Shown here piece by piece: positions 1,496-31,240 of a stretch of DNA of 45,775 nucleotides. This stretch comes from Deltaproteobacteria bacterium (lineage in GTDB: Bacteria; UBA10199; SPLOWO2-01-44-7). The notes under the pieces are model-generated. The model was given only the letters and a program-made list of their open reading frames with translations, made no database searches and was not told the origin of the DNA. Each line of letters starts with the position of its first letter. Position 1 is the stretch's first letter. The translations under genes were made by a program, and so were the position numbers. The stretch covers positions 1 through 45,775 of the forward strand of contig JAHFSU010000015.1 of the NCBI GenBank assembly GCA_023265595.1, written 5' to 3'.

Positions 1496-1571
1496 TGTCA
1501 TCGCAAGCCTCTTCAGGGGCGTGGCGATCCCGTTGACTATCGGGATTGCTTCGCTGCCGCTCGCAATGACA
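1496..1571. repeat. GTCATTGCGAG-type inverted repeat (family C, copy 1)
   Basis: The ends are inverted (TGTCATCGC at the left, GCAATGACA at the right) and an inner stem ATCCCG/CGGGAT surrounds a short loop. The same design recurs at 10393-10528 and 12939-13038. The right half of this copy lies inside dsbD and supplies its last nine codons and its TAG stop; the left half is the spacer to the next gene. Short repeats beginning GTCATTGCGAG occur interspersed in many bacterial genomes; their mode of spread is mostly unknown. Confidence 0.8.
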
Positions 1572-3144
1572 GCATCAATTTTTCCGGATTGTAAGAGATA
1601 ACTTTTAAATCTTCCATCATCTCACCATTTGGTTTCACAAATAAAATAGTCGGCCAACCGACCACCCTGTATTTTTTGAGCAACCGTTCCACTTCGGCGT
1701 TGCCGCTAAAGGTCGCGTCGATCCTCACGGGGATCATCTGTTGCAACAGCGCCACGACTTCCGGTTTTCTAAAAAAGCCAATTTCCAATTCTTTGCACGG
1801 CGCGCACCATTCGGCATAAAAATCGATCAGCATCACCCGATTTTCCCGCGCCGCCATCTCCAGACCGCGCGGTTCGGAATCGATCCAAACAACCGAACCG
1901 GGCTGATGCCAAAAATAGCTAAGCCCTTTTTCGAGCGGGATCACGGTGTTGAGATAAAAAAGAGCAATGCCGAAAAGGACAAGCCCCATCGCCCGTTTGG
2001 CCCAGACACTGAGCGGAAAGCGGCGAAAACGCCCTTGCAATGTTCCGTAACCGGTCCCGAGCAAAACAAAGAGCAGCCCCATCCCCAACGCGTAGACGAG
2101 AAGGAGAATAAAACCTTGCATGAAATTTTGATTTCCGGCCACGAACAAAAGAAGTGAGCCGACCACCGGGCCCGCGCACGGCGCCGCAAGGAGACCGGCC
2201 GCCGCCCCCGAGACAAACGCACCGATCCGCCCATGCCCCTTGATATGATTCAGACGATGCCGCAATGTTTGCGGAAGATGGATTTCGTAAAACCCGAACA
2301 TCGAAAGGCTTAAAATGAAAAAGAAAATCGCGAGCGCCACGACGACCCATTTTTCCTGAAAGACAAACCCGAGGCTTTTTCCCAAAGCGACCGCCAAAAC
2401 GCCCAAGGCGGCATAGGTAATGGCAAGACCCAAAACGAGATAGATCGACAACAAAAGATTTTTCCGAACCGGATGCTGCGCCCGCACACCGATGATCATC
2501 AATGTGATCGGAATGAGAGGGAGCACGCACGGAGTGAGCGACGTCAAAACACCCCCCAAAAAGACAACCATCAAAACCACCCACCACCCCTGCTCCAAAA
2601 TTCGCGAAAAATCCTGCGTCTGCAACAGCTCCCGCCACGAATTCCTACCTGGTAGGGAAAGGCCTTCCCCTACCAGGTAGGGAGGTTGGCTCGCCACTTG
2701 GAATCGGAAGACGATCAGATGTTTTTCTTCGGGATAACAAAGGGTTGTGGAACAACCTTGAAGTTTCACAAGAGCCTCCAGCAACCGCTCTCCCCCTAGC
2801 GCCCCAGCCGGAAGTTCAAAAGTCACCTGAAGGGTTATCTCCCCTCGAAAAATCTCTTTTCTCTTTTTGAAAAAGGGGTCTTCGTACCATTCCGATGGGG
2901 GGTACTCGATCTTTTTGACCTTAACCCCCTCCAGATTCAAAAATTCCAACTCTGTTTTATCCTTATAGATAAAATAGCCTTGTGGAATCTGAACGGAAAC
3001 CGAAACGGTCTTTGTCTCTCCGGGGAAAATGGTAATGGGACTATCGGGGGATAAAACCTGAAACGGACTTTTTTCCTGTGCCGATACGCCGGCGCCAAAT
3101 AAAAACACCAAACAGAGAAAAAATCCAAAAAATCTCAAGGACAT
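1537..3144 (-). CDS. dsbD: Thiol:disulfide interchange protein DsbD
   Basis: 535 residues with the complete three-part DsbD plan. DsbD passes electrons from cytoplasmic thioredoxin across the inner membrane to periplasmic disulfide reductases and cytochrome c maturation. Signal peptide 1-22 (cleavage after VSA); N-terminal domain with the cysteine pair GCSTTLC (C131, C136); CcdA-like membrane domain about 185-405 with cysteines in SLTPCVLPLIP (C206) and LAAPCAGPVVG (C323); C-terminal thioredoxin domain with WCAPC (C447, C450). Two repeats lie within it: residues about 154-168 come from a 38 bp palindrome between the N domain and the membrane domain, and the last nine residues (LRAAAKQSR) and stop come from the repeat at 1496-1571. 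The first 104 bp overlap the upstream protease gene in another frame. No strong ribosome site is seen, so translation may be coupled. Confidence 0.95.
   Translation of the reverse strand: MSLRFFGFFLCLVFLFGAGVSAQEKSPFQVLSPDSPITIFPGETKTVSVSVQIPQGYFIYKDKTELEFLNLEGVKVKKIEYPPSEWYEDPFFKKRKEIFRGEITLQVTFELPAGALGGERLLEALVKLQGCSTTLCYPEEKHLIVFRFQVASQPPYLVGEGLSLPGRNSWRELLQTQDFSRILEQGWWVVLMVVFLGGVLTSLTPCVLPLIPITLMIIGVRAQHPVRKNLLLSIYLVLGLAITYAALGVLAVALGKSLGFVFQEKWVVVALAIFFFILSLSMFGFYEIHLPQTLRHRLNHIKGHGRIGAFVSGAAAGLLAAPCAGPVVGSLLLFVAGNQNFMQGFILLLVYALGMGLLFVLLGTGYGTLQGRFRRFPLSVWAKRAMGLVLFGIALFYLNTVIPLEKGLSYFWHQPGSVVWIDSEPRGLEMAARENRVMLIDFYAEWCAPCKELEIGFFRKPEVVALLQQMIPVRIDATFSGNAEVERLLKKYRVVGWPTILFVKPNGEMMEDLKVISYNPEKLMLSLRAAAKQSR
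2644..2681. repeat. CCTACCTGGTAGGG palindrome (family A, copy 1) inside dsbD
   Basis: A near-perfect 38 bp palindrome with arms CCTACCTGGTAGGG and CCCTACCAGGTAGG and an AAGGCCTT centre; one mismatch. The same element occurs at 9583-9619 in aroE. In dsbD it is read without a stop as YLVGEGLSLPGR, in the linker between the periplasmic N domain and the first membrane helix. Confidence 0.85.
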
Positions 3145-4453
3145 GATCGTTGAATGTACGGAAAGAGCTGTCGGAAGTCAACTGGCACCATCCCTTTCCG
3201 GAACTCCCTTCTGATGTATCGATACTGCCGGCGCCGGCGCCATCGTTTTCACTTTCGGACGAAGTGGGGGAGAGAGAAAAAGCCGGCATCGTAATCACCT
3301 GCCCCCCCCTTTCACAGCGGATTGTTGTGGCTCCGCCCGAAGCCGGAATATGGCCACTCCCAAAACCTTGCGGCGAGAGATCATCCATCGGTTCAAAACC
3401 GGAGCTTTCTTTATATTTATCGGAGGCCAGCTCTTCATAGATCACTTCATAATCAAAACCGGGCAACAACCCCGATAAAATATAGTCCCCATGAAGGGTC
3501 CTGTTGGGTGAATAGGGATACAAAACACCGCTCACCATCGAACGGGCATCGCGCTGGGGGTCGCTCACCTGTCGCGCAATAACATTGACGCCGGGCATCG
3601 GGTTTCCATCGGCGGCGTTTTTGATCTCGCCTTGAACAAAACAAAACGAATCTTTAAAAGTCTGGTTCGGGTAGAGCCATGAAATAGTGACTTTATCGTC
3701 GCGATGGAGCCCGATCTGTTCGGTCGATTTGAGTTCGGGAAACATCGTCGGAATATTAACCCCAGTTGAACACTCCGATGTGAGGGAACAAGACAACGCC
3801 GACTCCAAATTGACCTGCGTATGATCGAGATTTAACAAGTGGCCCAGCTCATGCAAAATAACCGCTTTAAACTGTTCCTGAGTAATTTCGGGATCTGCCG
3901 CCGTATTCACCCCATTCACCAAAAGACCGTTCAAGAGAATAATGCCGCCGTAAATATCTTTGGAATTTCCTTTCGGAAACGGAGTCCCCATTCCGGCGAT
4001 CGATTTTTTCGCATTAGGATCCCCCGTATAATCGGCAATAATCGAGCCGTCGACATCAAAAATGATCGTTGCCGGCATCGGATTGGACAAATCGGGAAAG
4101 GTATAGGCTTCATGATTCTCTTTGGTGATGTCTTCCCCCACTTTGCCGTCGCCATCTTTTTGAAATTCAATTGCAACGGTCGATACCGCAGACCCATTGG
4201 GAAGATTTAACGAGACATTTTGCCACTTGCTAAAAAGATCAGTCATCCAGCTCAACGCGGTCGCTCGGTCGACACGCACGTTGAGAGGCCCATTATCGGC
4301 GCGCCATTTGACGACCCATTTCTGCTTCACATCATCAAAGGGCCAACGGGCCGGCTCTCCCGAACGTGTCACCCTATCGACCATAAAAGGCCCGCCGGCC
4401 AATAATGGAAAACAAACAAGGGAGAAAAATGTGAAAAACAAAATGCGTTTCAT
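3041..4453 (-). CDS. Secreted matrixin-like zinc metalloprotease
   Basis: 470 residues. Signal peptide 1-20 (MKRILFFTFFSLVCFPLLAG). The zinc site HELGHLLNLDH (H201, E202, H205, H211) is the extended metzincin motif HExGHxxxxxH, and NIPTMFP downstream (about residue 235) fits the Met-turn. Residues about 270-400 look like a carboxypeptidase-regulatory-type beta domain (QGEIKNAADGNPMPGVNVIA). The C-terminus has a Ser/Glu/Gly-rich linker, a lone cysteine (GWCQL, C423), a short hydrophobic stretch 441-453 and an Arg cluster (WRRR), which resembles MYXO-CTERM-like cell-surface sorting tails, although the spacing between Cys and helix is longer than usual. The start overlaps the stop of the upstream secreted-protein gene (ATGA), so the two are probably co-translated. 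The 3' end overlaps the dsbD start by 104 bp. Confidence 0.85.
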   Translation of the reverse strand: MKRILFFTFFSLVCFPLLAGGPFMVDRVTRSGEPARWPFDDVKQKWVVKWRADNGPLNVRVDRATALSWMTDLFSKWQNVSLNLPNGSAVSTVAIEFQKDGDGKVGEDITKENHEAYTFPDLSNPMPATIIFDVDGSIIADYTGDPNAKKSIAGMGTPFPKGNSKDIYGGIILLNGLLVNGVNTAADPEITQEQFKAVILHELGHLLNLDHTQVNLESALSCSLTSECSTGVNIPTMFPELKSTEQIGLHRDDKVTISWLYPNQTFKDSFCFVQGEIKNAADGNPMPGVNVIARQVSDPQRDARSMVSGVLYPYSPNRTLHGDYILSGLLPGFDYEVIYEELASDKYKESSGFEPMDDLSPQGFGSGHIPASGGATTIRCERGGQVITMPAFSLSPTSSESENDGAGAGSIDTSEGSSGKGWCQLTSDSSFRTFNDHVLEIFWIFSLFGVFIWRRRIGTGKKSVSGFIPR

Positions 4454-5058
4454 CGGTTGACCACAATGTTTTTGATTAAAGAGGTGAAATCGTCATAAGA
4501 GATAGGCCCGGAAGCGCCCTCCACCATATTTCGCTGGCTTTTGCTTAAACTTTTTGTCGGCAATCCTTTGAACAGACCTTTGTTCCCATACGGATTGACT
4601 ACTTTTACATTTCCCTCTGCATCGCGAAGAATTTTGAAATTTCCCTGCCCGCCGCCGACGATCCACCGAAAGCCTTCGTATTTGGTTGAAGGGGGGCCAA
4701 AAAAGAAAATACCTTCCTGTCTGACTTCAAATCGGTTCGACTCTATCGGAGGCAAATGATATTGCATCGCTTCGCTGCGCGAGTGGACATCCCATTGACT
4801 CACCTCAAAACTCGAACCGCAACTTCCTTTGAGACATTCTCTGGTCAGAAAAGTATAGATGACAATCGGCACCTCCTGCTTCGTGACAGGATGGACCAGC
4901 ATACTCCCCCGTTTTGCGGTGCAAGCGGCATCGGCAATGATATCGGAGTTTTCAACCATATCTTCCAGTTGAGCTGGAAGGATAACTGTGGCAAAATTGG
5001 GGGATCCGATAAGGAGAGTGAAGACTAAAACGAATATTTTTAATGTTGCCTGTTTCAT
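4450..5058 (-). CDS. Secreted protein of unknown function, first gene of protease operon
   Basis: 202 residues with a signal peptide (MKQATLKIFVLVFTLLIGSP, cleavage near residue 23). The mature part has cysteines C46, C75 and C80, the last two in RECLKGSCGS, so a disulfide is possible. The stop overlaps the ATG of the metalloprotease by 4 bp, which predicts translational coupling and a shared job, for example a partner, inhibitor or folding aid of the protease; this is inference from position. No known domain is recognised. It heads the minus-strand cluster that continues into dsbD, divergent from the S41 protease gene. Confidence 0.75.
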   Translation of the reverse strand: MKQATLKIFVLVFTLLIGSPNFATVILPAQLEDMVENSDIIADAACTAKRGSMLVHPVTKQEVPIVIYTFLTRECLKGSCGSSFEVSQWDVHSRSEAMQYHLPPIESNRFEVRQEGIFFFGPPSTKYEGFRWIVGGGQGNFKILRDAEGNVKVVNPYGNKGLFKGLPTKSLSKSQRNMVEGASGPISYDDFTSLIKNIVVNR

Positions 5059-5125: not shown

Positions 5126-7834
5126 TTGCTTAAAATCAGTAAATATATGATTTTTAAAATAATTTTTTGTATGCATATGGTAGCTGCTACCATATGCTCC
5201 TCTACACTTTTTGCCAAAGCCCCCGACCCCAACTACCCATTGGGAAGCGCCCTTTTGGCCTCCAAAACCATTTACTATATCCAAAGATACTATGTTGATC
5301 CGGCCCGTATCGATACCGATGCCATGTTCGAAGCGGCGCTGAATCAGGTCCAAAAAAATGTTCCGGAGGTGTTGGCCAAATGCGAAAAACCGAAATTGTG
5401 TTCAGTCACCGTCAATCAAGCGACCAAGCGTTTCAAATTTCCATCCAAAGAATTGGCCGGTTTGTCGAATACCTTGAAAGAGGTTTTTCAATTCATGGAG
5501 ATGCATGTCGACAAAGATACCGACAAGGAAGAGATCGAAGGCTCCGCGATTGAAGGGATGCTCAATGAGCTCGACCCCCACTCCAATTTTTTGAGCGCCG
5601 ATGTTTACCGCGAATTTCGTGTCGGCACGGAGGGAGAATTCGGCGGATTAGGGATTGTGATCGGACTTAAAGACGGAAAATTAACCGTCACCGCGCCGCT
5701 CGAAGGAACTCCCGCTTGGCGAGCCGGTGTCAAAGCGGGAGACATCATCATACAGATTAACGAGGAATCGACCATCAACATGACCCTGACCGAAGCGGTG
5801 GAACGTCTGCGCGGCCCGGTCGGAACCAAAATCACGATCAAAGTAGAACGGGGAGGGAGAGGTACCCCGTTGGCATTGACGCTGAAACGGGCCTTGATCA
5901 ACATCGAAGCGGTACAGGCAAAATTGGTGAAGACCCCAAAAGGGGCGCCGGTCGGTTTCATCCGTGTCAAAAGTTTTCAGGCGAACACCGAGACCGATTT
6001 TTTGAAGGCGTTGGCCGATTTGACGGCGACCCCGAATCTGAAAGGGATTGTTCTCGATTTGAGAAACAACCCGGGAGGACTTTTGGATCAGGCGGTCTCT
6101 TTGTCCGACGCCTTTCTCAAAGAGGGGGTCATTGTATCGACCGTCGGACCTCAGGGAAAATTGATCGATCGCCAACGGGCGCGGTATGAAGGAAAAGAAC
6201 CGGATGTTCCCCTGATTGTTTTAGTGAATGAAGGTTCCGCTTCCGCATCGGAAATTGTGGCCGGCGCCCTCAAAAACAACAACCGGGCGCTGATTGTCGG
6301 CGCCAAAACATTCGGCAAAGGTTCGGTTCAAAGTGTTTACGATCTTCCGATGGACGCCGCCGTCAAACTGACCGTAGCCCAATATCTGACACCGGGCAAT
6401 CAATCGATCCAATCGATTGGCATCACCCCCGACATTGAACTCGATCCGATCATCATCGATAAAGATCATCTCGATACCGTTGAGAATATTCTCTTTGGCG
6501 AAAAAGATCTCGAAAAACATTTCGACAAACAGAGCGAGGAGATTGAAAAACCGGAGTATGTTCTCCGCTTTCTGGCCCCGACTCCCAAAGAAGAGGAAGA
6601 ACCGCAATACCATCCGGAATTGCGGCTTGAAGAAGATACCGTGGGCCAAGTGGCGCTCGATCTGATCGATTCGGTCAAGAGCGCCAACCGGATTGAAATG
6701 CTCAAAGAAGTGGAACCGCCCCTCAAGACAAAGCAACAGGGAGAGGATAAAAAAGTGACGGCCGTCTTCCAAAAATTGGGAACCGACTGGAATATGGCGG
6801 AAACGGCGAAAGGGACTGCGCCACAAGCCGAAATTTCTTTCGATCTTCTGAAAGATGGAAAAATTATCAAGCGGGCGTTGGCCGGCGATTCGGTCACGCT
6901 CAAAATCCGGATCAAAAACGTCGGAAAAGCCCCCTTCACCCGTCTGGTGGCCCAGTCGGAAACAGAAGACGGCCTTTTCAAAAATATCGAATTTGCCTTC
7001 GGCAAAATTTTACCGGAATCTTCCGCAAGCTGGGAGATGAAATTGAAAATTCCGACTGCCGCCCTCACCGAAGATGTCCCGATCAAGCTGAAATTTAACG
7101 AGGCCCACAATAATATCCCGGCCGATGCGGAAATCATCATCCCCATTCAAGGTTTGAAACGCCCCCGTTTCGCCCATCTCTACCAACTGGAGGAAAATTG
7201 GGCCGCCCAACTCAAAATGGGAAAAAGCGTTACATTGACAGTCAAGGTGACGAATCAGGGGGAAGGCCGTTCCAAGGCCCCCGTTGTTGCGATCAAAAAT
7301 CTAAACGGAAAAGAAGTCTTCATCGAAAAAGGCCGCACCGTTTTGGAGGCGCTCGATCCCGGAAAAACGGCAACCGCCGTTTTGAATTTTCACATCGACC
7401 CGAAATGGGAAGAACCGATTCGATTGGGGCTCCATATCGCCGATAGCGATCTGCTCGTAAATACCGAACAGGATATCACGCTTAAACCGAAGGAGGAAAC
7501 CGTCACTCCACAACAGGCGGTCCTCTACAGCCCGCCAGCCATCCTGATCACCAGCAAAATTACAGAGCCAATAAAATCCCCCTTCCTCTTGGAGGGACAG
7601 GTTAAAGACGACAAAATCATCAAAGATTTTTACATTTTTCTTGACGAGAAAAAGGTTTTTTACGAATCGAATGCAAAACAGAATGAGTCCCTTTCTTTTT
7701 CCGTCCCGTTAGAAATGAAAAAGGGAAACAACATCGTCGGCATTACGGCGCGGGATAATGGAAACCTGATGACGCGACAATTTTTTGTTGTGCAACAAGC
7801 GGCGGCCAAAACCGATGCAAAGGCATCGCCGTGA
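5126..7834 (+). CDS. S41 carboxy-terminal processing protease with C-terminal beta-sandwich extension
   Basis: 902 residues. Periplasmic tail-specific (Tsp/CtpA) protease: signal peptide 1-30, helical region with ELDPHSNFL (148-155), PDZ domain about 165-245 (GGLGIVIG), S41 catalytic domain about 255-435. The Ser/Lys pair is S373 in GSASASEI and K398 in KTFGKGSVQ, 25 residues apart as in E. coli Tsp. About 340 further residues (565-902) contain at least two CARDB/Ig-like beta-sandwich modules (for example VTLKIRIKNVGKAPF and VTLTVKVTNQGEG) and a last beta domain; this resembles a deltaproteobacterial subfamily that I recall as MXAN_5808-like. Start: TTG 5126 has AGGGGG six bases upstream; ATG 5147 is the alternative. 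It begins a plus-strand operon and overlaps ribF by 4 bp (GTGA). Confidence 0.93.
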   Translation: MLKISKYMIFKIIFCMHMVAATICSSTLFAKAPDPNYPLGSALLASKTIYYIQRYYVDPARIDTDAMFEAALNQVQKNVPEVLAKCEKPKLCSVTVNQATKRFKFPSKELAGLSNTLKEVFQFMEMHVDKDTDKEEIEGSAIEGMLNELDPHSNFLSADVYREFRVGTEGEFGGLGIVIGLKDGKLTVTAPLEGTPAWRAGVKAGDIIIQINEESTINMTLTEAVERLRGPVGTKITIKVERGGRGTPLALTLKRALINIEAVQAKLVKTPKGAPVGFIRVKSFQANTETDFLKALADLTATPNLKGIVLDLRNNPGGLLDQAVSLSDAFLKEGVIVSTVGPQGKLIDRQRARYEGKEPDVPLIVLVNEGSASASEIVAGALKNNNRALIVGAKTFGKGSVQSVYDLPMDAAVKLTVAQYLTPGNQSIQSIGITPDIELDPIIIDKDHLDTVENILFGEKDLEKHFDKQSEEIEKPEYVLRFLAPTPKEEEEPQYHPELRLEEDTVGQVALDLIDSVKSANRIEMLKEVEPPLKTKQQGEDKKVTAVFQKLGTDWNMAETAKGTAPQAEISFDLLKDGKIIKRALAGDSVTLKIRIKNVGKAPFTRLVAQSETEDGLFKNIEFAFGKILPESSASWEMKLKIPTAALTEDVPIKLKFNEAHNNIPADAEIIIPIQGLKRPRFAHLYQLEENWAAQLKMGKSVTLTVKVTNQGEGRSKAPVVAIKNLNGKEVFIEKGRTVLEALDPGKTATAVLNFHIDPKWEEPIRLGLHIADSDLLVNTEQDITLKPKEETVTPQQAVLYSPPAILITSKITEPIKSPFLLEGQVKDDKIIKDFYIFLDEKKVFYESNAKQNESLSFSVPLEMKKGNNIVGITARDNGNLMTRQFFVVQQAAAKTDAKASP
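5173..5197. repeat. GCATATGGTAGC palindrome (family F, copy 1)
   Basis: A perfect palindrome with 12 bp arms around one central base, nearly identical to the 29 bp palindrome at 38892-38920 beside guaA. Here it lies in the coding sequence for the signal peptide of the S41 protease and is read as MVAATIC. A partial relative lies at 27936-27956. Confidence 0.85.
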
Positions 7835-8829
7835 AAGTCTTTCGCGGATCCAAAACATTCAAAAGCGGCAAAAGAGATGTCGGCATGGCCCTCGGCAATT
7901 TCGACGGGGTCCATCAGGGCCACCAAACCATTCTCAAAAATTGTATCACGACCGCCGCAAAAAAAGAGTGGATGGCGGCTGTTTACACTTTTGATCCCCA
8001 TCCGGCAAAAATTCTCTCTCCAAAAACCATGCCCCCCTTGATTCAAACTCTCGATCAAAAACTGGCTTGTCTTGAAAAAACGGGGGTGGAAGCCGTGATC
8101 GTCGAAAAATTTGATCCGGCTTTTTCGAAATTAACGCCAAAACAATTTCTCGATGAAATTCTGCTGAGACGATTGCACACAAAAGGGATTTGGGTCGGCT
8201 ACGATTTTACTTTTGGTGTCAAACGGAGCGGCAATATCGAAACTTTGAAAACATTCTGCAAAAAAGAAGGGCTGCATCTTCACGTAACCGGAGCCCAGTT
8301 CGAAAAAGAGACGCTCGTCAGCTCGACCCAAATCCGGCAGTTGATCGGCCGCGGACAGGTCGATCTGGCCGCCGAATTTTTGGGGAGGCCTTTTACACTG
8401 ATCGGCGAGGTGGTGCGCGGCGAAGGGATCGGCGGCGAAATGGGAATTCACACGGCAAACCTAAAGGTCGAGAATGAACTCCTCCCCCGAATAGGGATTT
8501 ATGCAACCCGATCCACGATTCACGCCTGTCCGCCGGTAGTTTGGCGGGCTCCACGCCTGTCCGCCGGTAGTTTGGCGGGCTCCACGAAGGAGTGGCCCTC
8601 CGCAACCAGCGTCGGTTTCAACCCGACCTTTCCCGGAAAAGGTTTTTCGGTGGAGACCCATCTGATCGGCTTTGAAGGAAATCTGGTCGGCCAAAGAATT
8701 GAAGTTGCGTTTTTGAAATGGCTGCGCAATGAATTGACCTTTCCCAATGCGGAAACATTGGCGGTGCAGATTCAAAAAGATATTTCGGAGGCGCTAAAAA
8801 TCAATGAAACTCTTCGGCATCATCGGTAA
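7831..8829 (+). CDS. ribF: Bifunctional riboflavin kinase/FAD synthetase RibF
   Basis: 332 residues. RibF phosphorylates riboflavin to FMN and adenylylates FMN to FAD. The N-terminal FAD synthetase domain has LGNFDGVHQGHQ (21-32), TFDPHP and SSTQIR; the C-terminal flavokinase domain has HTANLKV and GFNPTFPG. Residues about 230-253, between GIYAT and ATSVGFNPTF, come from two tandem 31 bp palindromic repeats. Because 31 is not a multiple of three, the two copies are read in different frames (PPVVWRAP and then LSAGSLAGST). The insert sits in a loop of the flavokinase fold, so activity is probably kept; this is not proven. The start is GTG overlapping the protease stop. It overlaps aroE by 26 bp. 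Confidence 0.94.
   Translation: MKVFRGSKTFKSGKRDVGMALGNFDGVHQGHQTILKNCITTAAKKEWMAAVYTFDPHPAKILSPKTMPPLIQTLDQKLACLEKTGVEAVIVEKFDPAFSKLTPKQFLDEILLRRLHTKGIWVGYDFTFGVKRSGNIETLKTFCKKEGLHLHVTGAQFEKETLVSSTQIRQLIGRGQVDLAAEFLGRPFTLIGEVVRGEGIGGEMGIHTANLKVENELLPRIGIYATRSTIHACPPVVWRAPRLSAGSLAGSTKEWPSATSVGFNPTFPGKGFSVETHLIGFEGNLVGQRIEVAFLKWLRNELTFPNAETLAVQIQKDISEALKINETLRHHR
8521..8582. repeat. Tandem pair of family B elements inside ribF
   Basis: Two copies of a 31 bp unit whose core is CCGCCGGTAGTTTGGCGG, a hairpin with CCGCC/GGCGG stem. Related single copies are at 20349-20392, 23020-23065 and 31191-31240, with a shortened one near 29811. Both copies here are fully open in the ribF frame. Confidence 0.9.
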
Positions 8830-9619
8830 TCCGCTCGACCATTCGTTGTCGCCAAAAATTTTCAATGCCCTTTTCAAAAAAAAACGCCTCCCATTTCGCT
8901 ATCTCTCCTTTCAGGTCGAAAAAAATCATCTCAAAAATCTGGTTCGCTGCATGAAACTCTGCGATATAGAGGGGCTCAATGTGACCGCCCCATTCAAGGA
9001 GGCGGTGATCCCCCATTTGGATGGCTTGGATCCCTTTGCCAAACAGTGCGGCGCGGTCAACACGATTGTCCGTCAGAAAAATCGCTTCGTCGGCTTCAAT
9101 ACGGATGGCCCCGGTTTTGTCTGGGCTTTGAAGGAAAAAGCGAAGGTCCTTCCAAAAAACAAGACGGTCCTATTGATCGGCGCCGGTGGCGCGGCCAGAG
9201 GGATTGCCGCGGCTTTGGCCGCCAATGGGGCCAAAAAAATTATTGTTTTTAATCGTCACCCCCTGCGCGCAAAAAAAATGGGACAACACTTGAAAAAATA
9301 TTTTCCAAAAACGATATGGCAGACATTGCCACTGGCCGCAAAAAAACTGAAAACTGTCTTGCCACAAACCAATCTCCTGATTCAAACCACCCCTTCTCTT
9401 CTTGCACTCCCCATCTCCCTTTTGTCGCAAGAGGCTATCGTTTGCGACATCCTCTATGGCAAGGGAGAGACAAAATTATTAAAGGCCGCCAAAAAACGCC
9501 GCCTCAAAACCGTGAACGGCCTCTCGCTCCTCCATTTTCAAATCCTCCTGAATCAAAAACTTTGGGGCCTTCCCCCATTTCCCCTACCTGGTAGGGAGAG
9601 GCCTTCCCCTACCAGGTAG
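8804..9619 (+). CDS. aroE: Shikimate dehydrogenase
   Basis: 271 residues. Reduces 3-dehydroshikimate to shikimate with NADPH in aromatic amino acid synthesis. Substrate-site motifs GNPLDHSLSP (8-17) and NVTAPFKE (59-66, catalytic K65), GFNTDGPGF (catalytic D101) and the nucleotide-binding loop GAGGAARG (126-133) are intact; NGLSLLHFQ near the C-terminus is the usual last conserved block. The C-terminus is unusual: after NQKLWGLPP the last residues (FPLPGRERPSPTR) and the TAG stop are supplied by a family A palindrome, replacing the original end. It begins inside ribF (26 bp overlap) and is the last gene of the S41 protease-ribF-aroE operon. Confidence 0.94.
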   Translation: MKLFGIIGNPLDHSLSPKIFNALFKKKRLPFRYLSFQVEKNHLKNLVRCMKLCDIEGLNVTAPFKEAVIPHLDGLDPFAKQCGAVNTIVRQKNRFVGFNTDGPGFVWALKEKAKVLPKNKTVLLIGAGGAARGIAAALAANGAKKIIVFNRHPLRAKKMGQHLKKYFPKTIWQTLPLAAKKLKTVLPQTNLLIQTTPSLLALPISLLSQEAIVCDILYGKGETKLLKAAKKRRLKTVNGLSLLHFQILLNQKLWGLPPFPLPGRERPSPTR

Positions 9620-9656
9620 AAAATGGGTGTTTTTAAACCAGGTAGGGAATGGGTGT
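9583..9656. repeat. Family A palindrome (copy 2) plus a half copy at the aroE end
   Basis: 9583-9619 repeats the dsbD palindrome (CCTACCTGGTAGGG arms, AGGCCT centre) and includes the aroE stop codon. About 18 bases on, a half element (CCAGGTAGGG) follows, and AATGGGTGTTTTT occurs twice around it, giving short direct repeats. The hairpin followed by T-runs could also act as a weak terminator for the operon. Confidence 0.8.
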
Positions 9657-9739
9657 TTTTTTACCGAAAAGGGGTGTATTAGAACTCCCTGACTCAAAAA
9701 AATAATAAGTAAAATCAAATAGTTATATTTTAAACTTAT

Positions 9740-9770: not shown

Positions 9771-10232
9771 ATGGCTTCCAAAACTCAAAAAACGAAAACG
9801 ATTGTAGTTGTTGAAGATGATGCAACTTATCTCCACCTCTGGACGAAATTGATCCGAGAGGCCGGCATCTCCCACCCCTTCCCTTTCTCCAACGCTAAAG
9901 AAGCGCTCCAATTTCTCAAAAAAACAAAAGCCGATCTGTTGATCAGCGATGTCTTGATGCCGCAGACAAATGGTTATGAATTGGCCTTGAGCGCCAGAAC
10001 GCTCCATCCGAAACTGGAAATTTTGCTGACGACCGGTTACGAAACCGATCTCTCCCGATACGATTTGAAAGGATTACGCTGCCATCTGCTGCACAAACCG
10101 TACCACAATCTGAATGACGTCTGTCTTTTGCTGAAAAAACTAATTTTAGGCGAAAATGTTTTTGAGGAGATGGACGAAGATTCCTTCAGCGAAAATATCG
10201 ACAACCCCGATGTCACCGAGTGGACCCTTTAA
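9771..10232 (+). CDS. Single-domain response regulator (CheY-like receiver)
   Basis: 153 residues from ATG 9771 (a GTG lies directly before it). Almost the whole protein is one receiver domain: acidic pair in VVVEDDATY, phospho-acceptor Asp (D60) in LISDVLMPQTNGYE, Thr in LLTTGYE, and Lys-Pro in LLHKPYH. After the domain there is only a short acidic tail (about 135-153), no DNA-binding or enzyme output, so it probably acts by protein contact or in a phosphorelay. No histidine kinase is nearby. Its stop shares bases with the stop of the convergent helicase gene (TTAA at 10229-10232). Confidence 0.9.
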   Translation: MASKTQKTKTIVVVEDDATYLHLWTKLIREAGISHPFPFSNAKEALQFLKKTKADLLISDVLMPQTNGYELALSARTLHPKLEILLTTGYETDLSRYDLKGLRCHLLHKPYHNLNDVCLLLKKLILGENVFEEMDEDSFSENIDNPDVTEWTL

Positions 10233-12463
10233 CAGCGCTCTAACTTTGCATATTCCGCAATCAATTTTTTAATCATCCCATTGGCAAATTTGACGGTCAC
10301 TTTTTCGCCAAGAGTTGTTTTTTCCGAGGCGGCGATTGTGCCCATGCCAAAGTCGGGATGTTTGACTCTGGAGCCGATGCGATAATTTCGATTGTCATCG
10401 TGAAGAGTCCGTGAGGGCAACGTGGCAATCCCGAGATTGCTTCGCGGAGCCTGCCTCGAGCCCGGAGATTGCTTCCCCCTCGACAAGCTCGGGGTCGCAA
10501 TGACAAGCGGGGGGGCTCGCAATGACACCTGCGAATCCTCCCAGTCTTGATTGAAATCATCCTCCACTCTATTTTTATCGATTCGTTCGATCAGCTCTGC
10601 CGGCATCTCTTCCAAAAAGCGGGAGGGCAAACCATACTGTTCCTGTCCATTGTAAAAACGCCGCCACGCATGGGTCAAAAAAAGTTTTTTCTTGGCACGG
10701 GTCATCCCCACATAAAAAAGGCGACGCTCTTCTTCGAGCTCTTCAATCTCGTCCTGAGAACGGGCATGCGGCAACAATCCTTCTTCCATCCCCACAATCC
10801 CCACCACACTGAATTCCAAACCCTTGGCCAAATGGAGCGTCATCAGCGGCAAAACGCCTCCTTCTGCATTTTGATCCAGATCAGAAATAAGGGCCACCTG
10901 ATCAAGGTACGATTGCAAAATGGCATCGGGAAAATTTTCTTCAAAATCGGCGACGCTGGCCACCAGTTCATTGAGATTCTCGAGACGCTCTTCAGCTTCG
11001 CTTGAAGTCTGTGCAGTAAGCGAACGGATCATGCCGCTCTCCTCCAAAACCTTCTGCAAAATAGCGACAAGATTTAACGGGCCATCCGCCGCCGTTTTCT
11101 GCATTCCCTCCAGCCATTTCAAAAATTCCTGTAATTTTGGATGATCGGTCTCTTTTGCCGCATCGAAAAAAGAGAGCCCGCGAGCTTGTGCAAGGGCCTC
11201 CACTTTATCAAGGGTCGTTTTGCCGATACCGCGCGCCGGCACATTGACAATCCGCTTGAAAGCGACCGAATCTTGCGGCTGGCAAAGAACGCGCAGATAA
11301 GCCAGCGCATCTTTCACCTCGGCCCGTTCATAAAACCGCAAACCTCCATAAATAATGTAGGGGATTCCCGCCATGCGCAAAATTTCTTCCAACGGGCGCG
11401 ATTGGGCATTGGTGCGATAAAAAATGGCCATATCACCAAAGGGAACTTTTTCTTCCAAATGCCATTGGCGAAGCCTCTCTACCACAAAAACGGCCTCCTC
11501 TTTTTCGCTATTCAAACTGGCCAGCGTAATTTGCGGGCCCGGCTCGTTATCACTCCACAGTCCCTTTTCCTTGCGGAGCTCGTTGTTGGCGATGACTTTG
11601 GCCGCCGCTTTCAAAACATTTTGCACCGAGCGATAATTCTGTTCGAGCCTCACCACCCGCGCTTCGGGATAATCTTTTTCAAAATTGAGGATATTGTTCA
11701 GATCGGCCCCGCGCCAGCGGTAGATCGACTGATCGGGGTCTCCCACCACACACAAATTTTTGTGCGTTTGGGCGAGCAGAGAAATCAAAACATATTGGGC
11801 ATGATTGGTGTCCTGATATTCGTCGATCAAAATCTGCTGCCACATTTGCTGATAGCCTTTCAAGACATGCGGCTGTTTTTGAAAAAGAGTAACCGTTTTC
11901 AAAATAAGATCGCCGAAATCGAGCGCGTTGTTGTCGTTCAGGATTTTCTGATAGCCTCGATAAATATCGATCACCCGTTTGATGTAGGGATTGCCGGCAT
12001 CGCTTTCCAAATCGTCCGGATTTTTCAGTTCGTCTTTAAGCCTTGAAATACGGCCGACAATGGCCGACGGTGGAAATTTTTTATCATCCAGATTGATCTC
12101 TCGTATCACCTGTTTCACAACACTCACCTGATCGGCGGCATCATAAATATTAAAGGACGGCGCAATGCCGGCCTCCAATGCATGTTTGCGCAAAATTTTG
12201 ACGCAAATGGAATGAAAAGTGCCGACCCAAAGCTCTCTCGCTTTGGGGCCGATCAACTGCTCCAGCCGTTTTTTCATTTCACCCGCGGCCTTATTGGTGA
12301 AGGTCACAGCAAGGATGCGCCCCGGCGACAATTCACAATCTTGCACCAGATGGGCAATGCGATGGGTCAGCACGCGGGTCTTGCCGGTGCCGGCGCCGGC
12401 CAAGATAAGGAGCGGCCCCTTTTCGTGATGCACTGCTTCGAGTTGTTGGGGATTGAGGGACAT
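10229..12463 (-). CDS. pcrA: UvrD/PcrA family DNA helicase (superfamily 1A)
   Basis: 744 residues. ATP-driven 3'-5' DNA helicase for repair and replication restart. Q-motif LNPQQLEAVHH at the N-terminus, Walker A AGAGTGKT (22-29), DEExx-type motif LIDEYQDT (near 222), GDPDQSIYRWRGAD, QNYRS, motif V/VI region TLHLAKGLEF and RRLFYVGMTRAKK. The C-terminal end (RIGSRVKHPDFGMGTI to the stop) is the PcrA-type Tudor-like domain. Between the helicase core and this domain, residues about 646-691 are encoded by a compound family C repeat, a disordered linker position that tolerates inserts. The ATG has no clear ribosome site. PcrA and UvrD cannot be separated by sequence alone here. Confidence 0.93.
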   Translation of the reverse strand: MSLNPQQLEAVHHEKGPLLILAGAGTGKTRVLTHRIAHLVQDCELSPGRILAVTFTNKAAGEMKKRLEQLIGPKARELWVGTFHSICVKILRKHALEAGIAPSFNIYDAADQVSVVKQVIREINLDDKKFPPSAIVGRISRLKDELKNPDDLESDAGNPYIKRVIDIYRGYQKILNDNNALDFGDLILKTVTLFQKQPHVLKGYQQMWQQILIDEYQDTNHAQYVLISLLAQTHKNLCVVGDPDQSIYRWRGADLNNILNFEKDYPEARVVRLEQNYRSVQNVLKAAAKVIANNELRKEKGLWSDNEPGPQITLASLNSEKEEAVFVVERLRQWHLEEKVPFGDMAIFYRTNAQSRPLEEILRMAGIPYIIYGGLRFYERAEVKDALAYLRVLCQPQDSVAFKRIVNVPARGIGKTTLDKVEALAQARGLSFFDAAKETDHPKLQEFLKWLEGMQKTAADGPLNLVAILQKVLEESGMIRSLTAQTSSEAEERLENLNELVASVADFEENFPDAILQSYLDQVALISDLDQNAEGGVLPLMTLHLAKGLEFSVVGIVGMEEGLLPHARSQDEIEELEEERRLFYVGMTRAKKKLFLTHAWRRFYNGQEQYGLPSRFLEEMPAELIERIDKNRVEDDFNQDWEDSQVSLRAPPLVIATPSLSRGKQSPGSRQAPRSNLGIATLPSRTLHDDNRNYRIGSRVKHPDFGMGTIAASEKTTLGEKVTVKFANGMIKKLIAEYAKLERC
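10393..10528. repeat. Compound GTCATTGCGAG-type repeat (family C, copy 2) inside the helicase gene
   Basis: About 135 bp starting GTCATCGTGAAGAGTCC and ending in two close GCAATGACA-type ends (near 10505 and 10526), with ATTGCTTCC and CTCGACAAGCTCGGGG internal blocks as in the copy at 12939. It is open throughout in the helicase frame and encodes a Ser/Pro/Arg-rich linker. It seems to be two nested or adjacent insertions. Confidence 0.8.
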
Positions 12464-12473: not shown

Positions 12474-12848
12474 TCAATTATCACAATTCTTATTTTCCTG
12501 AATGATAAAATAGAGAGTGAGACCCGTAGACAATGCAATACCACCACCCAACGCAATAGCACCCGATGTTTCATGATTGTTGGCCAAAAGAATACCGCCG
12601 GTGATAATAAAAGGGAGACCCGCGACAAGGGTCATCCCATAAAACAATTCTCTTCCACCCGGGATGCCGATATCGCCGTCGTTTGTTTTCTCACGGCATT
12701 TTCTTCTTTGCGGTTTTTCTTGCAGGAAGGGTTGTACAGAAACGGTAAAAAAATCTTTTGGAGTCAATGGTGCCTTACCAAAAGTAAGCCTCTCATTAAA
12801 ACCAAGTATCGGTTTTTGGAAATCACCAAGATGAATCTGATCGACCAT
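12474..12848 (-). CDS. Small membrane protein, unknown function
   Basis: 124 residues. A polar N-terminal half with a short basic stretch (KPQRRKCREK) is followed by two hydrophobic segments (about 70-90 and 96-114) with many Gly and Ala residues, probably a helical hairpin in the membrane. A ribosome site (AGGAAA) lies about 8 bases before the ATG. It is directly upstream of the helicase gene on the same strand, with an 11 bp gap, so they may be co-transcribed. I do not recognise the family. Confidence 0.65.
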   Translation of the reverse strand: MVDQIHLGDFQKPILGFNERLTFGKAPLTPKDFFTVSVQPFLQEKPQRRKCREKTNDGDIGIPGGRELFYGMTLVAGLPFIITGGILLANNHETSGAIALGGGIALSTGLTLYFIIQENKNCDN

Positions 12849-12906: not shown

Positions 12907-13076
12907 TGTAGTGTCCCATTAATATCTTTACACACAACTGTCATCGCGAGCCCCAAAGGGGCGTGGCGATCCAGTTGTAATCACTCGAGTTTGCTAACTG
13001 GATTGCTTCCCCCTCGACAAACTCGGGGTCGCAATGACGGCGGCTTCTATTGTCAAGGAGCGTTAGGGGCACTACA
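12907..13076. mobile_element. MITE-like element with terminal inverted repeats and TTAG direct repeats
   Basis: 170 bp with imperfect ends TGTAGTGTCCCATTAA (left) and, inverted, TGTAGTGCCCCTAACG (right). The bases TTAG flank both sides as a direct repeat (12903-12906 and 13077-13080), as a 4 bp target duplication would. Inside is a complete family C repeat (12939-13038: TGTCATCGCGAG to GGTCGCAATGACGG). It has no coding capacity for a transposase, so it would be a non-autonomous element or a remnant. It fills the 240 bp gap between the 124-residue membrane protein and the next gene. Confidence 0.65.
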
Positions 13077-19884: not shown

Positions 19885-19943
19885 ATGCATAAAAAGTTAG
19901 CAACCTTTTTTGAACCCTGCCGATAGGTTAGTTGGAGGTCACC

Positions 19944-20576
19944 ATGACGGAAAATGAAATGCAACCGATCACACTGATCAACCCGAAACAGGGCCCTAAG
20001 CCCCCTTCCCTTTTGGCCAACATTGCGGTCATGCTTTTGCTGTTCAGCGTCGTCTGGGGAGGACAACGGATGGTAAAAAGATGGCAACACACGGCCACAC
20101 CGGCACCTACCGCAGAAACCCTTGCCGAACCGGTGACCGAAACCAAAGAAACTAAAGAGGCGGCTGAAAATAATATCGTGATGGAAGACCTCGACAATGA
20201 ACAACCGATTGCTGAATCAGCGCCGGTCGTGATGCCGGCGGAGACTAAAGAGGCGCCCAAACCAAAACCGGTTGCGAAGAAAAAAACCGCCGTCAAAAAA
20301 CCGATCTCAAAAAAGAAGGTCGCAAAAAAACAGCGATCTACGATTCCCGATTCACGCCTGCCCGCCGATAGTTTGGCGAGATCCACGAAATCAATTTATG
20401 CGAAGCCCGATCCCTACACCGACGGCGGCGCAAACGATTTAGATCGTCTGGAAAACCGTAAAAAATATAACTTGCCGGTTGCAACAAAACAGATCAAAAA
20501 AGTAAAAACCGAAACGGCAGCCCCCTCCGTCCCTCTCGATGAACGGGACCAGTTCATTCCGTTTGAGAAGGATTAG
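19944..20576 (+). CDS. Membrane-anchored Lys/Ala-rich protein, unknown function
   Basis: 210 residues from ATG 19944, fixed by GGAGG about 6 bases upstream (a TTG at 19932 lies within that site). One membrane helix at about 26-43 (LLANIAVMLLLFSVVWGG), then a long low-complexity periplasmic region: Glu/Thr/Pro-rich first, then Lys/Pro/Ala-rich (about 105-132), which suggests a stalk that crosses the envelope or binds acidic polymer. Residues about 136-150 (SRLPADSLARSTKS) come from a family B palindrome. The C-terminal 45 residues are charged without known domain. Its stop overlaps that of the convergent relE-like gene. Confidence 0.75.
   Translation: MTENEMQPITLINPKQGPKPPSLLANIAVMLLLFSVVWGGQRMVKRWQHTATPAPTAETLAEPVTETKETKEAAENNIVMEDLDNEQPIAESAPVVMPAETKEAPKPKPVAKKKTAVKKPISKKKVAKKQRSTIPDSRLPADSLARSTKSIYAKPDPYTDGGANDLDRLENRKKYNLPVATKQIKKVKTETAAPSVPLDERDQFIPFEKD
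20349..20392. repeat. Family B element inside the membrane-protein gene
   Basis: A diverged copy, GATTCACGCCTGCCCGCC to GATCCACGAAATC, with the CCGCC/GGCGA stem partly decayed. It is read in the same orientation and frame as in ribF copy 2 and in pgeF (RLPADSLARST against RLSAGSLAGST). Confidence 0.8.
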
Positions 20577-21125: not shown

Positions 21126-21172
21126 CTTGTTTCGAACAAGTAAAGTGTACTCTAAAGAGTATACTTTGTCAA
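21126..21172 (-). promoter_or_regulatory. Toxin-antitoxin promoter with operator palindromes
   Basis: On the minus strand: -35 TTGACA (21167-21172), 17 bp spacer, -10 TACACT (21144-21149), ahead of the antitoxin ATG at 21115. The spacer and -10 box carry the inverted repeat AGTATACTCT/AGAGTACACT with one mismatch, and a second perfect palindrome CTTGTTTCGAACAAG lies at 21126-21140. Both fit binding by the Phd/YefM dimer. The -35 box overlaps the stop codon of lysA. Confidence 0.75.
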
Positions 21173-22512
21173 CGCGCTGTATCCAGATTTTCTACACCAA
21201 GGAGCCAATCTTCAAAGGTTTCACGGCGACGGATGAGTTTGTCGGTTTTGCCGTCGACCAAAACTTCAGCGGCGCGGAGGCGTCCGTTGTAGGGATAGCT
21301 CATGCAAAAACCGTAGGCGCCGGCGTTTTCGACAACGATGAGATCGCCGATTTCCAGCTTGGGGAGTTCGCGGTCTTTGGCCCACGCATCGGCATTTTCA
21401 CAGGCCTGTCCGGTGATGGTCACTTTTTCTGGTTCGACAGGCTCACCATGACCGGTTTTGATGTCACCATGTCCGGTCATCCTGAGCTTGTCAAATCCGG
21501 TCATCCTGAGCTTGTCGAAGGATCTCGTTTTATCCACAGAAATACCGTGGTAGGCGCCGTAAAGCACTGGTCGGGCCAGTGTTGACATCCCGACATCAGT
21601 CCCGACGAATTTTTTGTAGCTCTCTTTGATCGCATGCACGCGGCCGATGATAAAACCGGCATCCCCCACCAGATAGCGCCCCGGCTCCACCACTAACTGG
21701 ACATCACCCAGACCAAACTCTTTTGTTTTTTTCCGGAAAACATCGCAAACTTTTTCCGCCGTCTTTTCGATGTCGAGCGGTTTTTCATCGGGCAGATACG
21801 GGATCCCAAAACCGCCGCCGATGTCGATGAACTCAAATTTTATATGGAGGTCGTGCGCCATGGGTCCGACGCAATCGAGCAGTTTTTTTGTGATCGCCTC
21901 AAAATATTCCGGCTCGGTCACGCAAGAGCCGGTCATCATGTGAACACCGAACTTTTTTATCCCCGCCTCTTTGGCTTTTGCATAGGCTTCTTTCGCCCTC
22001 TCCCACGGAATGCCGAATTTCGCCTGTTTCCCGGCCATCACATCACTTTCATGCACATTGCTTTTGCCAAAATCGGGATTAATCCGAAAACTTAAAACGT
22101 CCGGCTTTCCAAACTTTAGGAGACGATCCAAAAGGCTCACATCGTCCAGATTGATGAAGGCCCCCGATTCGATACCCGCTTTCAAATCATCATCATTCAA
22201 ATAATTTCCGGAAAATAAAATCGCTTTCCCTTTTGCCCCGAGCTTCTTTGCAAGCAAAATTTCATTTAAGCTCGCACAATCGCAAAAGGCCCCTTCTTGC
22301 ATCAATAATTTCACAATAGCGGGGTTGCTGTTCGATTTGACGGCGTAATAAATCTGAAACCGGGGCCAATGTTTTTTGAAGGTCCGATCAAGTCTTTGAA
22401 AATTCTCCCGTATGCGACCCGCCTCATAGACATAGAGCGGGGTGCCATACTCTTTGGCAAGCTCCTGCGCAGAAATGGAGTCGAAATAGATTTGAGAGTT
22501 TTTGTAATGCAT
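21169..22512 (-). CDS. lysA: Diaminopimelate decarboxylase
   Basis: 447 residues. PLP enzyme that forms lysine from meso-diaminopimelate, the last lysine step. Lys59 in YYAVKSNSNP holds PLP; HMMTGSCVTEPEYF, DIGGGFGIPY, EPGRYLVGDAG and the catalytic QACENAD and NAGAYGFCMSYPYNGR are present. Residues about 327-361, between GAYHGI and VTITGQACENAD, are read through an inserted GTCATCCTGAGC-type repeat array (SFDKLRMTGFDKLRMTG...), in the beta domain where family members have a variable loop. It starts 1 base after pgeF ends and closes the minus-strand operon that begins with the lipoprotein gene. Confidence 0.95.
   Translation of the reverse strand: MHYKNSQIYFDSISAQELAKEYGTPLYVYEAGRIRENFQRLDRTFKKHWPRFQIYYAVKSNSNPAIVKLLMQEGAFCDCASLNEILLAKKLGAKGKAILFSGNYLNDDDLKAGIESGAFINLDDVSLLDRLLKFGKPDVLSFRINPDFGKSNVHESDVMAGKQAKFGIPWERAKEAYAKAKEAGIKKFGVHMMTGSCVTEPEYFEAITKKLLDCVGPMAHDLHIKFEFIDIGGGFGIPYLPDEKPLDIEKTAEKVCDVFRKKTKEFGLGDVQLVVEPGRYLVGDAGFIIGRVHAIKESYKKFVGTDVGMSTLARPVLYGAYHGISVDKTRSFDKLRMTGFDKLRMTGHGDIKTGHGEPVEPEKVTITGQACENADAWAKDRELPKLEIGDLIVVENAGAYGFCMSYPYNGRLRAAEVLVDGKTDKLIRRRETFEDWLLGVENLDTAR
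21431..21525. repeat. CCTGAGCTTGTCGAAGGATC-type repeat array inside lysA (family E)
   Basis: GTCATCCTGAGCTTGTC occurs twice in direct orientation (near 21476 and 21500), followed by GAAGGATC, and GGTTCGACAGGCTCACCATG occurs once as a partner on the other side. All of it is open in the lysA frame, encoding DKLRMTG twice. This repeat type is widespread in bacterial genomes. Confidence 0.8.
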
Positions 22513-22513
22513 A

Positions 22514-30204: not shown

Positions 30205-31190
30205 ACATTATCTCTGCACAATTTGGAAATGAGTCGCTCCAAGAGAAGTTGTGAGGAGACGCGACTCGATTTCAGGGCACGATCGCAATCGGCCAAGGCC
30301 TTGAATCGTTTGGCCCATCCCTTCGGACGGAAGTGTCTGGCCTGCACGGCGTAATCTTTCGCAAAAAAAGGATGCACCCCAAGCTCTTTTGCTAATTGTG
30401 TTTCCGGACCATTGCCTCTGGCTAAAATCTCCTGCGCTTTGGCGAGCAACCGAAAATGACGGACAATCATCGCAAACGTCCTGAGCGGCTCCTCCCCTTG
30501 CGAAAAAATATTATCAAGATACCGGATGGCCTCTGCCGATTTTTTATTTCCGATCGCATTTGTCATCTCAAAAATATTTTTTTGCGCCGTATTCGCAATC
30601 ACCTTTTCAACATCAGCCAGATCGATCAATTTTTTGGCCCCCACAAACAAAAGCAGTTTCTCAAGAGACTGGTGAATGGCCCCTAAATCAGCGCCGACGC
30701 AATCGGCCAAAAACCGGGCCGCCTCCTGCGAAATTTGCAGTCCGGATGACTTGGCCTCCATATTGATCCATTGAGGCAGTTGGTTGGGATAGAGTTTTTT
30801 ACATTCGACAACGGCGGCTTTGCCCGAAATTTTTTTGAGGTCTGCGGCTTTGAGCTCTTCGGCAAGCAAAATCAGAACCGATTGGGGATTGGGATTGATT
30901 AAATATTCCTGTAACAACTCCCAATCGGGTTTTTTAAGTCGATCGGCATCGGTGGCCACCACAACCCGGCGCGGACTTAAAAGAGACGCCGTTTTGAGGC
31001 AATCCAAAACCGCGGCCAGTTTAGCAGTCCCGAGTTGAAAACGATCGACCGTTTCGGGCTCACTGCCGAAAACCGTTTTCAAAATCTGCCGCTCAGCTGA
31101 AAAAGCGAGATGCCGCTCCGGCCCGGAAATCAGATAACAGGAGGCGATTTTTTTGGCACGGAGTGTCTGATCGAGTTGTGTGATATCCAT
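30201..31190 (-). CDS. holA: DNA polymerase III subunit delta
   Basis: 329 residues from ATG 31190 (MDITQLDQ). The delta subunit opens the sliding clamp in the clamp loader. YLISGPERHLAFSAERQIL at the N-terminus, LLSPRRVVVATDADRL, and the C-terminal collar-like part (RFLADCVGADLGAIHQSLEKL, IRHFRLLAKAQEIL) fit family HolA. The upstream family B repeat runs right up to the ATG, and an in-frame TTG inside it would give an N-terminal extension MAGSTI, so the repeat may be translated. No normal ribosome site is visible. It follows leuS by about 60 bp and converges on rpsT. Confidence 0.9.
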   Translation of the reverse strand: MDITQLDQTLRAKKIASCYLISGPERHLAFSAERQILKTVFGSEPETVDRFQLGTAKLAAVLDCLKTASLLSPRRVVVATDADRLKKPDWELLQEYLINPNPQSVLILLAEELKAADLKKISGKAAVVECKKLYPNQLPQWINMEAKSSGLQISQEAARFLADCVGADLGAIHQSLEKLLLFVGAKKLIDLADVEKVIANTAQKNIFEMTNAIGNKKSAEAIRYLDNIFSQGEEPLRTFAMIVRHFRLLAKAQEILARGNGPETQLAKELGVHPFFAKDYAVQARHFRPKGWAKRFKALADCDRALKSSRVSSQLLLERLISKLCRDNV

Positions 31191-31240
31191 AATCGTGGAT
31201 CCCGCCAAACTACCGGCGGGCAGGCGTGGATCATGATTCG
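31191..31240. repeat. Family B element between leuS and holA
   Basis: ATCGTGGATCCCGCC to GGCGGGCAGGCGTGGATC, the full palindromic unit, directly upstream of the holA ATG. On the minus strand its end is in frame with holA (LAGST). Confidence 0.88.

Follow-up and report, generated by a model that had tools for sequence, protein, structure and literature searches.

The window analysed here, a stretch of 45,775 nucleotides (nt) on contig 49 (Accession No. JAHFSU010000015.1) of a Deltaproteobacteria bacterium, contains copies of five families of short repeats, designated F1–F5, which are inserted into the reading frames of conserved genes as well as between genes. The source is a 1.87-Mb metagenome-assembled genome (MAG; GCA_023265595.1) of 70 contigs that is 97% complete, and among the records found, the LeuS proteins closest to that of the window are those of two Deltaproteobacteria MAGs (81 and 70%). 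Nine insertions are present in the coding parts of eight genes, with dsbD receiving two, and four more copies are intergenic or upstream of genes (Table 1). The reading frame is kept across the inserts, and the final codons and stop of dsbD and aroE are derived from the repeat, i.e. form a new end of the protein, as had been proposed in the original prediction, which was made from this stretch alone. The eight hosts named there were retained, whereas holA, listed with reservation, was not; the F1 copy at holA is probably 5′ untranslated, with the start of the gene model (31190) lying after the repeat. The F1 copy before murJ, which was absent from that list, is probably non-coding as well, judging from relatives in which the protein starts at MSE or VSE. 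A coding role was considered for both copies and rejected. The F4 peptide of the S41 protease would be a signal peptide or a leader, depending on which of the two candidate start codons is used.

Table 1. Host genes and repeat copies in the window (residue numbers refer to the encoded protein)
Feature	Position	Strand	Remark
dsbD, host gene	1537–3144	-	two insertions, F3 in the middle and F2 at the end
F2 copy	1496–1571	-	last dsbD codons (SLRAAAKQSR) and stop
F3 palindrome (GTAG-type REP pair)	2644–2681		inside dsbD, residues 155–167
S41 protease, host gene	5126–7834	+	start at 5126 or about 5171
F4 palindrome	5171–5200		signal-peptide region of S41 protease
ribF, host gene	7831–8829	+	
Two tandem F1 hairpins (31-nt period) and CGTGAAT array remnants	8509–8586	+	ribF residues 227–252
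aroE, host gene	8804–9619	+	
F3 palindrome and degenerate halves	9583–9662		gives aroE C-terminus and TAG stop
pcrA/uvrD, host gene	10229–12463	-	
F2 composite (core 10467–10504)	10400–10527	-	C-terminal linker of pcrA
F2 copy	13001–13038		intergenic
Membrane protein, host gene	19932–20576	+	
F1 hairpin in 7-nt array remnant	20341–20387	+	within membrane protein
lysA, host gene	21169–22512	-	
F5 repeats (SFDKLRMTGFDKLRMTG...)	21423–21520	-	lysA residues 331–364
pgeF, host gene	22514–23269	-	
F1 hairpin	23023–23064	-	pgeF residues 69–83
F1 hairpin nested in CCCTCACCC...CCCTC repeat	29801–29871		upstream of murJ
F1 copy	31193–31246	-	at or before holA start
F4 palindrome	38894–38921		intergenic

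All five repeat types described in the original prediction were recovered in place, and each proved to be a genome-wide family. In assembly-wide pattern searches, with the reversed pattern as control, F1 (CGCCAAACTACCGGCGG, up to two mismatches) gave 58 matches (control, 1), F2 (GATTGCTTC-N-GCAATGAC) 79 matches (control, 0), F3 (CTACCTGGTAG) 42 half matches (control, 2), F4 (CATATGGTAGC) 48 half matches (control, 1), and F5 (TCCTGAGCTTGTCGAAG, up to two mismatches) 44 matches (control, 0), the last including one (C53:29705), retained in the cluster counts, that has probably arisen by chance within a conserved stretch of an acyl-CoA dehydrogenase gene. The elements are small, i.e. 24 nt in F1, ~30 nt in F4, and ~38 nt in F3, with the F2 composites of the window reaching ~76–128 nt.

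F1 is a 24-nt hairpin with the reverse complement CCTG-CCCGCC-GGTAGTTT-GGCGGG; GTAG lies within its loop and its 5′ tag is CCTG, so that it lacks GTAG on the 5′ side of the stem. Its length being divisible by three, a single hairpin on its own causes no frame shift. The hairpins are nested in other repeats. At 12 hand-picked copies of subtype F1a (tandem inner copies and those of contig 66 being left out), cutting out 24 nt restored a 7-nt array of CGTGGAT/CGTGAAT units with 168/252 matches, compared with 86–116 for other cut lengths from 19 to 29 nt and 77 for the uncut sequence. At 23 copies of subtype F1b, chosen by a filter on flanking C-runs, the same cut restored the empty host repeat, of which free copies are present elsewhere in the genome, with 432/483 matches, compared with 268–337 for other lengths from 20 to 28 nt. 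One further copy is nested in an F2-like repeat (C16:46800). The exact 24-mer pattern occurs 29 times in this genome and five times in the 45 other genomes of the class that were searched (one copy each in G001 and G003, and three in G032), with zero copies in 42 of the 46; F1 is thus a lineage-specific expansion. The spread of F2 is patchy: it is present in 22 of the 46 genomes, reaching 218 copies in G008 and 116 in G019, with no match in the other 24, and it was also found in contigs labelled Ignavibacteriales and Magasanikbacteria. The inner hairpin of F2 is variable, and its closing pair is a Watson–Crick pair in all 54 distinct versions, with four pair types being used.

For matches outside the window, the surrounding DNA was analysed in 100 stretches. 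A simple dicodon model served to call genes, the coding fraction being 0.90. A cluster was counted as inside a gene when it lay at least 30 nt from either end, and otherwise as at the 5′ edge, at the 3′ edge, or intergenic. Before counting, four F1 clusters were set aside because their context matched neither F1a nor F1b; two of these (C13:3489 and C22:64951) lack the CAGG tag and appear chance-like, and one (C21:1943) is a true 24-mer. Among 203 sampled clusters, 59 are inside genes, 17 at 3′ edges, 12 at 5′ edges, and 115 intergenic. Clusters in genes are thus far fewer than expected from random placement, the sampled sequence being 90% coding, and most insertions into genes have presumably been lost. 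For 50 of the 59 clusters inside genes, both flanks show an above-threshold coding signal in one common frame. Internal copies lying 150 nt or more from either gene end are present in 41 entries outside the window; these correspond to 40 genes, two entries on contig 44 being one gene. Pfam domains were detected in 37 of the 40 hosts, many of them housekeeping. With names assigned from these domains, the hosts include hemB, tgt, purH (two inserts), mnmA (three tandem F1 copies), gltX, der, polA, truA, dnaX, priA, lnt, and genes for a transglycosylase/transpeptidase, a Mur ligase, an RNB-domain ribonuclease, SMC, methionine synthase, and QRPTase. In-frame insertion of several families into housekeeping genes, as postulated from the window, is therefore seen throughout the genome, in unrelated conserved genes of a bacterium outside Rickettsia. 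The contig 44 gene (L303 and L304; 36569–47923) consists of one 3784-codon open frame without a Pfam domain, and this frame contains five repeat clusters, four of F1b and one of F2.

The insertion sites are located between conserved alignment blocks, in agreement with their proposed position in loops, linkers, or termini: LysA, when aligned to a homologue of solved structure, shows a break at residues 325/360, and the GltX alignment has a gap at the position of the insert. The repeat peptides are read in two to five different frames per family. These elements therefore do create protein sequence in the literal sense in which this had been suggested; the frames used and the differing peptides of relatives speak for tolerated insertion more than for a function of the peptide, and argue that the encoded peptides are tolerated spacers and not selected modules. 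Low-complexity peptides such as DHGPWTM, SFDKLRMTG, or GEGCLSAGSVAEGEG in predicted proteins can be repeat-derived, which calls for caution before they are named motifs.

We then compared the host proteins with those of five relatives, one from the same genus (G001) and four from the same family (G002–G005). In protein alignments, the columns of the repeat peptides are frequently filled otherwise in these relatives. The F3 site of dsbD contains a (GAACCTC)n array in G004, with no repeat seen in either G001 or G005. For the S41 protease, three of four relatives (G001, G004, and G005) have 7-nt arrays in the signal-peptide region. At the ribF site, TGGACCA arrays are present in G001 and G005, a hairpin within a 7-nt array of its own in G003, and no insert in G004. 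The pcrA linker holds another F2 copy in G003, 7-nt arrays in G005, and no repeat in G004, and the membrane protein site contains array-like DNA in G003 (by eye), with no repeat seen in G002, G004, and G005. F5-like DNA is present at the lysA site of G001, with arrays in G002, G004, and G005. At the pgeF site, G001 and G002 have GGTCCAY arrays, and hairpin-bearing array-like DNA was seen by eye in G003 and G004. In total, one or more relatives hold a repeat at each of the seven internal window sites by reading, and at six of seven by an automatic period-7 criterion. Among the hosts elsewhere, different kinds of repeats were seen by eye at one site in truA (F2 versus CATATGG palindromes), the Mur ligase gene (F5-like repeats versus 7-nt arrays), and mnmA (a palindrome versus arrays), and the dnaX site of G001 encodes SPSPLVGEG, resembling the host repeat without the F1 hairpin. 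A repeat-encoded peptide in an orthologue that lacks the repeat DNA was not seen at the seven internal window sites or in 12 hosts elsewhere; where the peptide is similar, e.g. in lysA, priA, polA, and truA of G001, the repeat DNA is present as well. The purH gene (L254:2314–3828), which carries F1a and F2 in its own genome, has several shared sites within one gene, with 7-nt arrays in both G001 and G005 at positions corresponding to own residues ~190 and 244.

The coincidence of sites was quantified with the 7-nt arrays of the relatives. In the orthologous genes of the syntenic region (98,940 nt), 18 period-7 arrays were detected, compared with 0–3 for each other period from 5 to 12, and 12 of the 18 overlap repeat sites of the window. 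Random placement gave means of 0.7–1.4 overlaps, and placement next to alignment gaps gave means of 2.0–5.4, the strictest version reaching 12 in one of 20,000 trials. A replication set of 12 hosts on other contigs, picked for annotation and variety of families before the relatives were inspected, contained 14 period-7 arrays (other periods, 0–3), 10 of which lie on an own site; the null means were 1.5 and, for gap-adjacent placement, 2.9, and none of 20,000 trials reached 10. In this set, the automatic criterion placed an array on the site in five of 12 hosts (tgt, mnmA, gltX, the Mur ligase gene, and purH). By reading, some repeat is present at the site in a relative in 11 of 12 hosts, with no clear one at hemB, and for eight of 12 the repeat found in one or more relatives differs in kind from the own one. 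Scanning of 141 kb from the relatives revealed 16 period-7 and six period-14 arrays, 0–1 for other periods, and none in one order-1 shuffle. One unit recurs in many genes of a genome, e.g. TGGACCA in six genes of G005 and CGGACAT, or a unit one step away from it, in four genes of G003, indicating that local slippage alone does not account for the arrays, which form dispersed families.

A search of the genome for TnpA-REP genes identified five genes for REP (repetitive extragenic palindrome)-associated tyrosine transposases (RAYTs; L001–L005). F3 halves lie on both sides of one of them, L002 on contig 21, which has an HTHV motif (open frame 1264–1908; F3 halves at 1201 and 1226 and at 1967, 1992, and 2017). 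The F3 copy of dsbD, on the minus strand, has the layout CTACCTG-GTAG-GGGAAGGCCTTTCCC-CTAC-CAGGTAG, i.e. a short palindrome adjoining GTAG (GGTAG GGGAAGGCCTTTCCC CTACC, 2644–2681). Judged by this sequence anatomy, F3 is a GTAG-type REP/REPIN (REP doublet forming hairpin) with its own RAYT. The 42 F3 halves form 20 clusters, of which 16 are intergenic. RAYTs L004 and L001 are flanked by separate inverted repeats, GGAACGTCCCC (44 nt, 95%) and GTGCCTGGCAC (31 nt, 97%), respectively; a 19-nt repeat resembling GTGCCTGGCAC was observed at the der site of G001. By eye, no flanking repeat was recognised at L003, and L005 has one degenerate F4 half-site on one side only. The loci of the five RAYTs, covered to ~1.5 kb on either side, yielded no F1, F2, or F5. 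The idea that all families share one mobilising enzyme, which the original prediction had offered as an inference, receives some encouragement from the presence of five RAYT genes in the genome; it is very improbable, however, that one RAYT moves all families, as only F3 flanks a RAYT on both sides and two other RAYTs have different flanking repeats. The five families are independent of one another and do not represent one family with one enzyme.

These results are most probably explained by mobile repeats that are tolerated at permissive loops, with repeat families turning over at fixed sites. Several independent families of small mobile repeats would be dispersed through the genome, F3 probably being copied by its RAYT through a hairpin-guided single-strand (HUH/Y1) mechanism, F1 acting as a 24-nt hairpin carried within other repeats, and F2, F4, and F5 being further palindromes. 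Insertions into genes would mostly survive when the frame is kept and the site is in a permissive loop, a linker, or an end of the protein; such a survival filter is suggested by the depletion in genes, the coding signal on both sides, and the gaps in orthologues. The permissive sites would be long-lived, with other species of the family often holding other repeats there, mainly 7-nt arrays, and families may replace or invade one another at a fixed site while the host protein is kept. A stronger form of this proposal is that permissive loops of core proteins are heritable safe harbours for repeat DNA, and that later families preferentially land in, or replace, a repeat already present there, as with hairpins entering 7-nt arrays and other repeats; sequence, frame, and family would then turn over at positions that persist through divergence at the family level. 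We consider this form rather unlikely; if it were true, nesting into already harmless repeats would be a form of targeting by which element and host are both protected.

Sharing of sites would also follow, with no targeting of repeats to repeats, if the sites are a few disordered linkers that tolerate anything, and we give this explanation an even chance. The position of the sites between conserved blocks fits it, and random insertion combined with purifying selection predicts sharing. Own sites were hit, however, beyond the gap-adjacent null in both sets (12 versus 4.7–5.4, and 10 versus 2.9), although alignment gaps are a rough proxy for tolerance. Somewhat doubtful, though still a serious contender, is a history in which each site received one ancestral 7-nt array before the family split, followed only by species-wide homogenisation and decay, the palindromes being later insertions into those arrays and no recurrent invasion of protein sites being involved. 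The presence of related 7-nt DNA in the gltX gene of all five relatives (G003 and G004 automatically, and the three others, which are degenerate, by eye), the F1a hairpins inside 7-nt arrays, and the ribF array of G003 that holds a hairpin are all in accordance with such a history; speaking against it are unrelated repeats at one site (truA, the Mur ligase gene, dsbD, and mnmA, by eye) and relatives without an insert (G004 at ribF; G003 and G005 at purH). Selection of the inserted peptides as modules that have a function in common appears highly improbable: F1b and F2 do show a preference for one frame (10 of 16 and seven of 10, respectively), which makes some selection on peptide properties, i.e. 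for tolerable linkers, likely, but unrelated peptides occupy the same site in relatives and each family uses several frames.

Several observations besides this frame preference and the gltX case weigh against turnover of mobile repeats at permissive sites. F1, F2, and F5 lack a linked transposase, and no movement was observed. No repeat was seen at the C-terminal sites in the aligned relatives (three for dsbD and four for aroE), nor was a clear one seen at the hemB site. G001 shares F5 or F2 at lysA, priA, the acyl-CoA dehydrogenase gene, polA, and truA, and some of the site sharing must be due to common ancestry; because it is partly inherited, it gives no count of independent events. In G001, tgt (contig C67) is split into two frames with the break at own residues 203/217, and der matches in two frames with the break at own residues 165/173 (stretches L426/L435 for tgt and der), indicating that, barring errors in the MAG, the frame is not always kept by a repeat at these sites; a second tgt fragment of G001 (C142) crosses the site in one frame. 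A strict scan of 685 kb of the own genome yielded three period-7 arrays versus seven of period 8, and the scan of the own syntenic genes yielded no period-7 arrays. Moreover, all genomes are draft MAGs, and the gene caller is home-made and simple.

Published systems are compared here from excerpts of the respective papers. The excerpts of PMC3733652 report intragenic REPs in several species, REPs that supply TAG stops, and different REPs at about the same recB site in two Xanthomonas species, and they count RPE-4 and RPE-6, two of the Rickettsia palindromic elements (RPEs), among short CGTC repeats; CGTC also occurs within some F2 copies. The precedent that had been named for in-gene repeats, i.e. 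RPEs, is thus apt, but too narrow, as in-gene REPs outside Rickettsia have been published. RPE insertions are reviewed in PMC2229807, where an RPE size of 105–146 bp is given, and RPEs are also treated in PMC2635572. Judging from excerpts of both, the present elements resemble RPEs in being palindromes that lie in frame in conserved genes and are tolerated at neutral sites; compared by description only, they differ in that most are smaller than 105–146 bp, occur in another lineage, and, in the case of F1, are nested, although the F2 composites overlap the RPE size range. F3 resembles GTAG-type REP/REPIN systems, for which recognition by TnpA-REP is treated in excerpts of PMC8266576, in its GTAG tag, palindrome, inverted pairs, and flanking RAYT, whereas no linked RAYT was found for F1, F2, and F5. 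In Geobacter metallireducens, GGGACCG heptanucleotide repeats occur at 49 intergenic and intragenic places (PMC2700814, excerpts), and tandem heptanucleotide repeats in other bacteria appear in excerpts of PMC4692102 and PMC4679880. The arrays of the relatives are likewise dispersed tandem 7-mers, with other periods rare, and share with those of Geobacter the location between and within genes and a similar unit (GGACC core); the excerpts of these three papers treat arrays mainly as regulatory or structural and do not mention coincidence with palindrome sites. Relative to the published in-gene REPs, the difference lies in five families in one small genome and in unrelated repeats that share sites across genomes of a family. 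In the open-licence PMC literature, no better precedent for site sharing was found than the recB remark in the excerpts of PMC3733652, and literal searches with F2 and F5 DNA and peptide strings returned only apparently unrelated matches. In-gene REPs and RPEs are therefore already known, and their combination with site sharing across relatives was not found in that literature. The system offers, outside obligate intracellular bacteria, a case in which the fate of repeat DNA in essential proteins can be traced across species, and the sharing of sites provides a test of whether the lengthening of proteins proceeds through random insertions that are tolerated or through the reuse of a few sites by successive selfish repeats.

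Some further differences from the relatives were noted along the window. The window genes at 12474, 13090, 14342, 14587, 14994, and 15970 have no orthologue in the fetched stretches of the relatives, and the distance from pcrA to the membrane protein gene is 3.8 kb in G003 versus 7.5 kb in the window. The window copy of leuS (31250–33553) contains none of the five repeats; its orthologue carries three 7-nt arrays in G001 and one in G004, and the G004 array shares its site with one of the three in G001 (own residues ~604–616).

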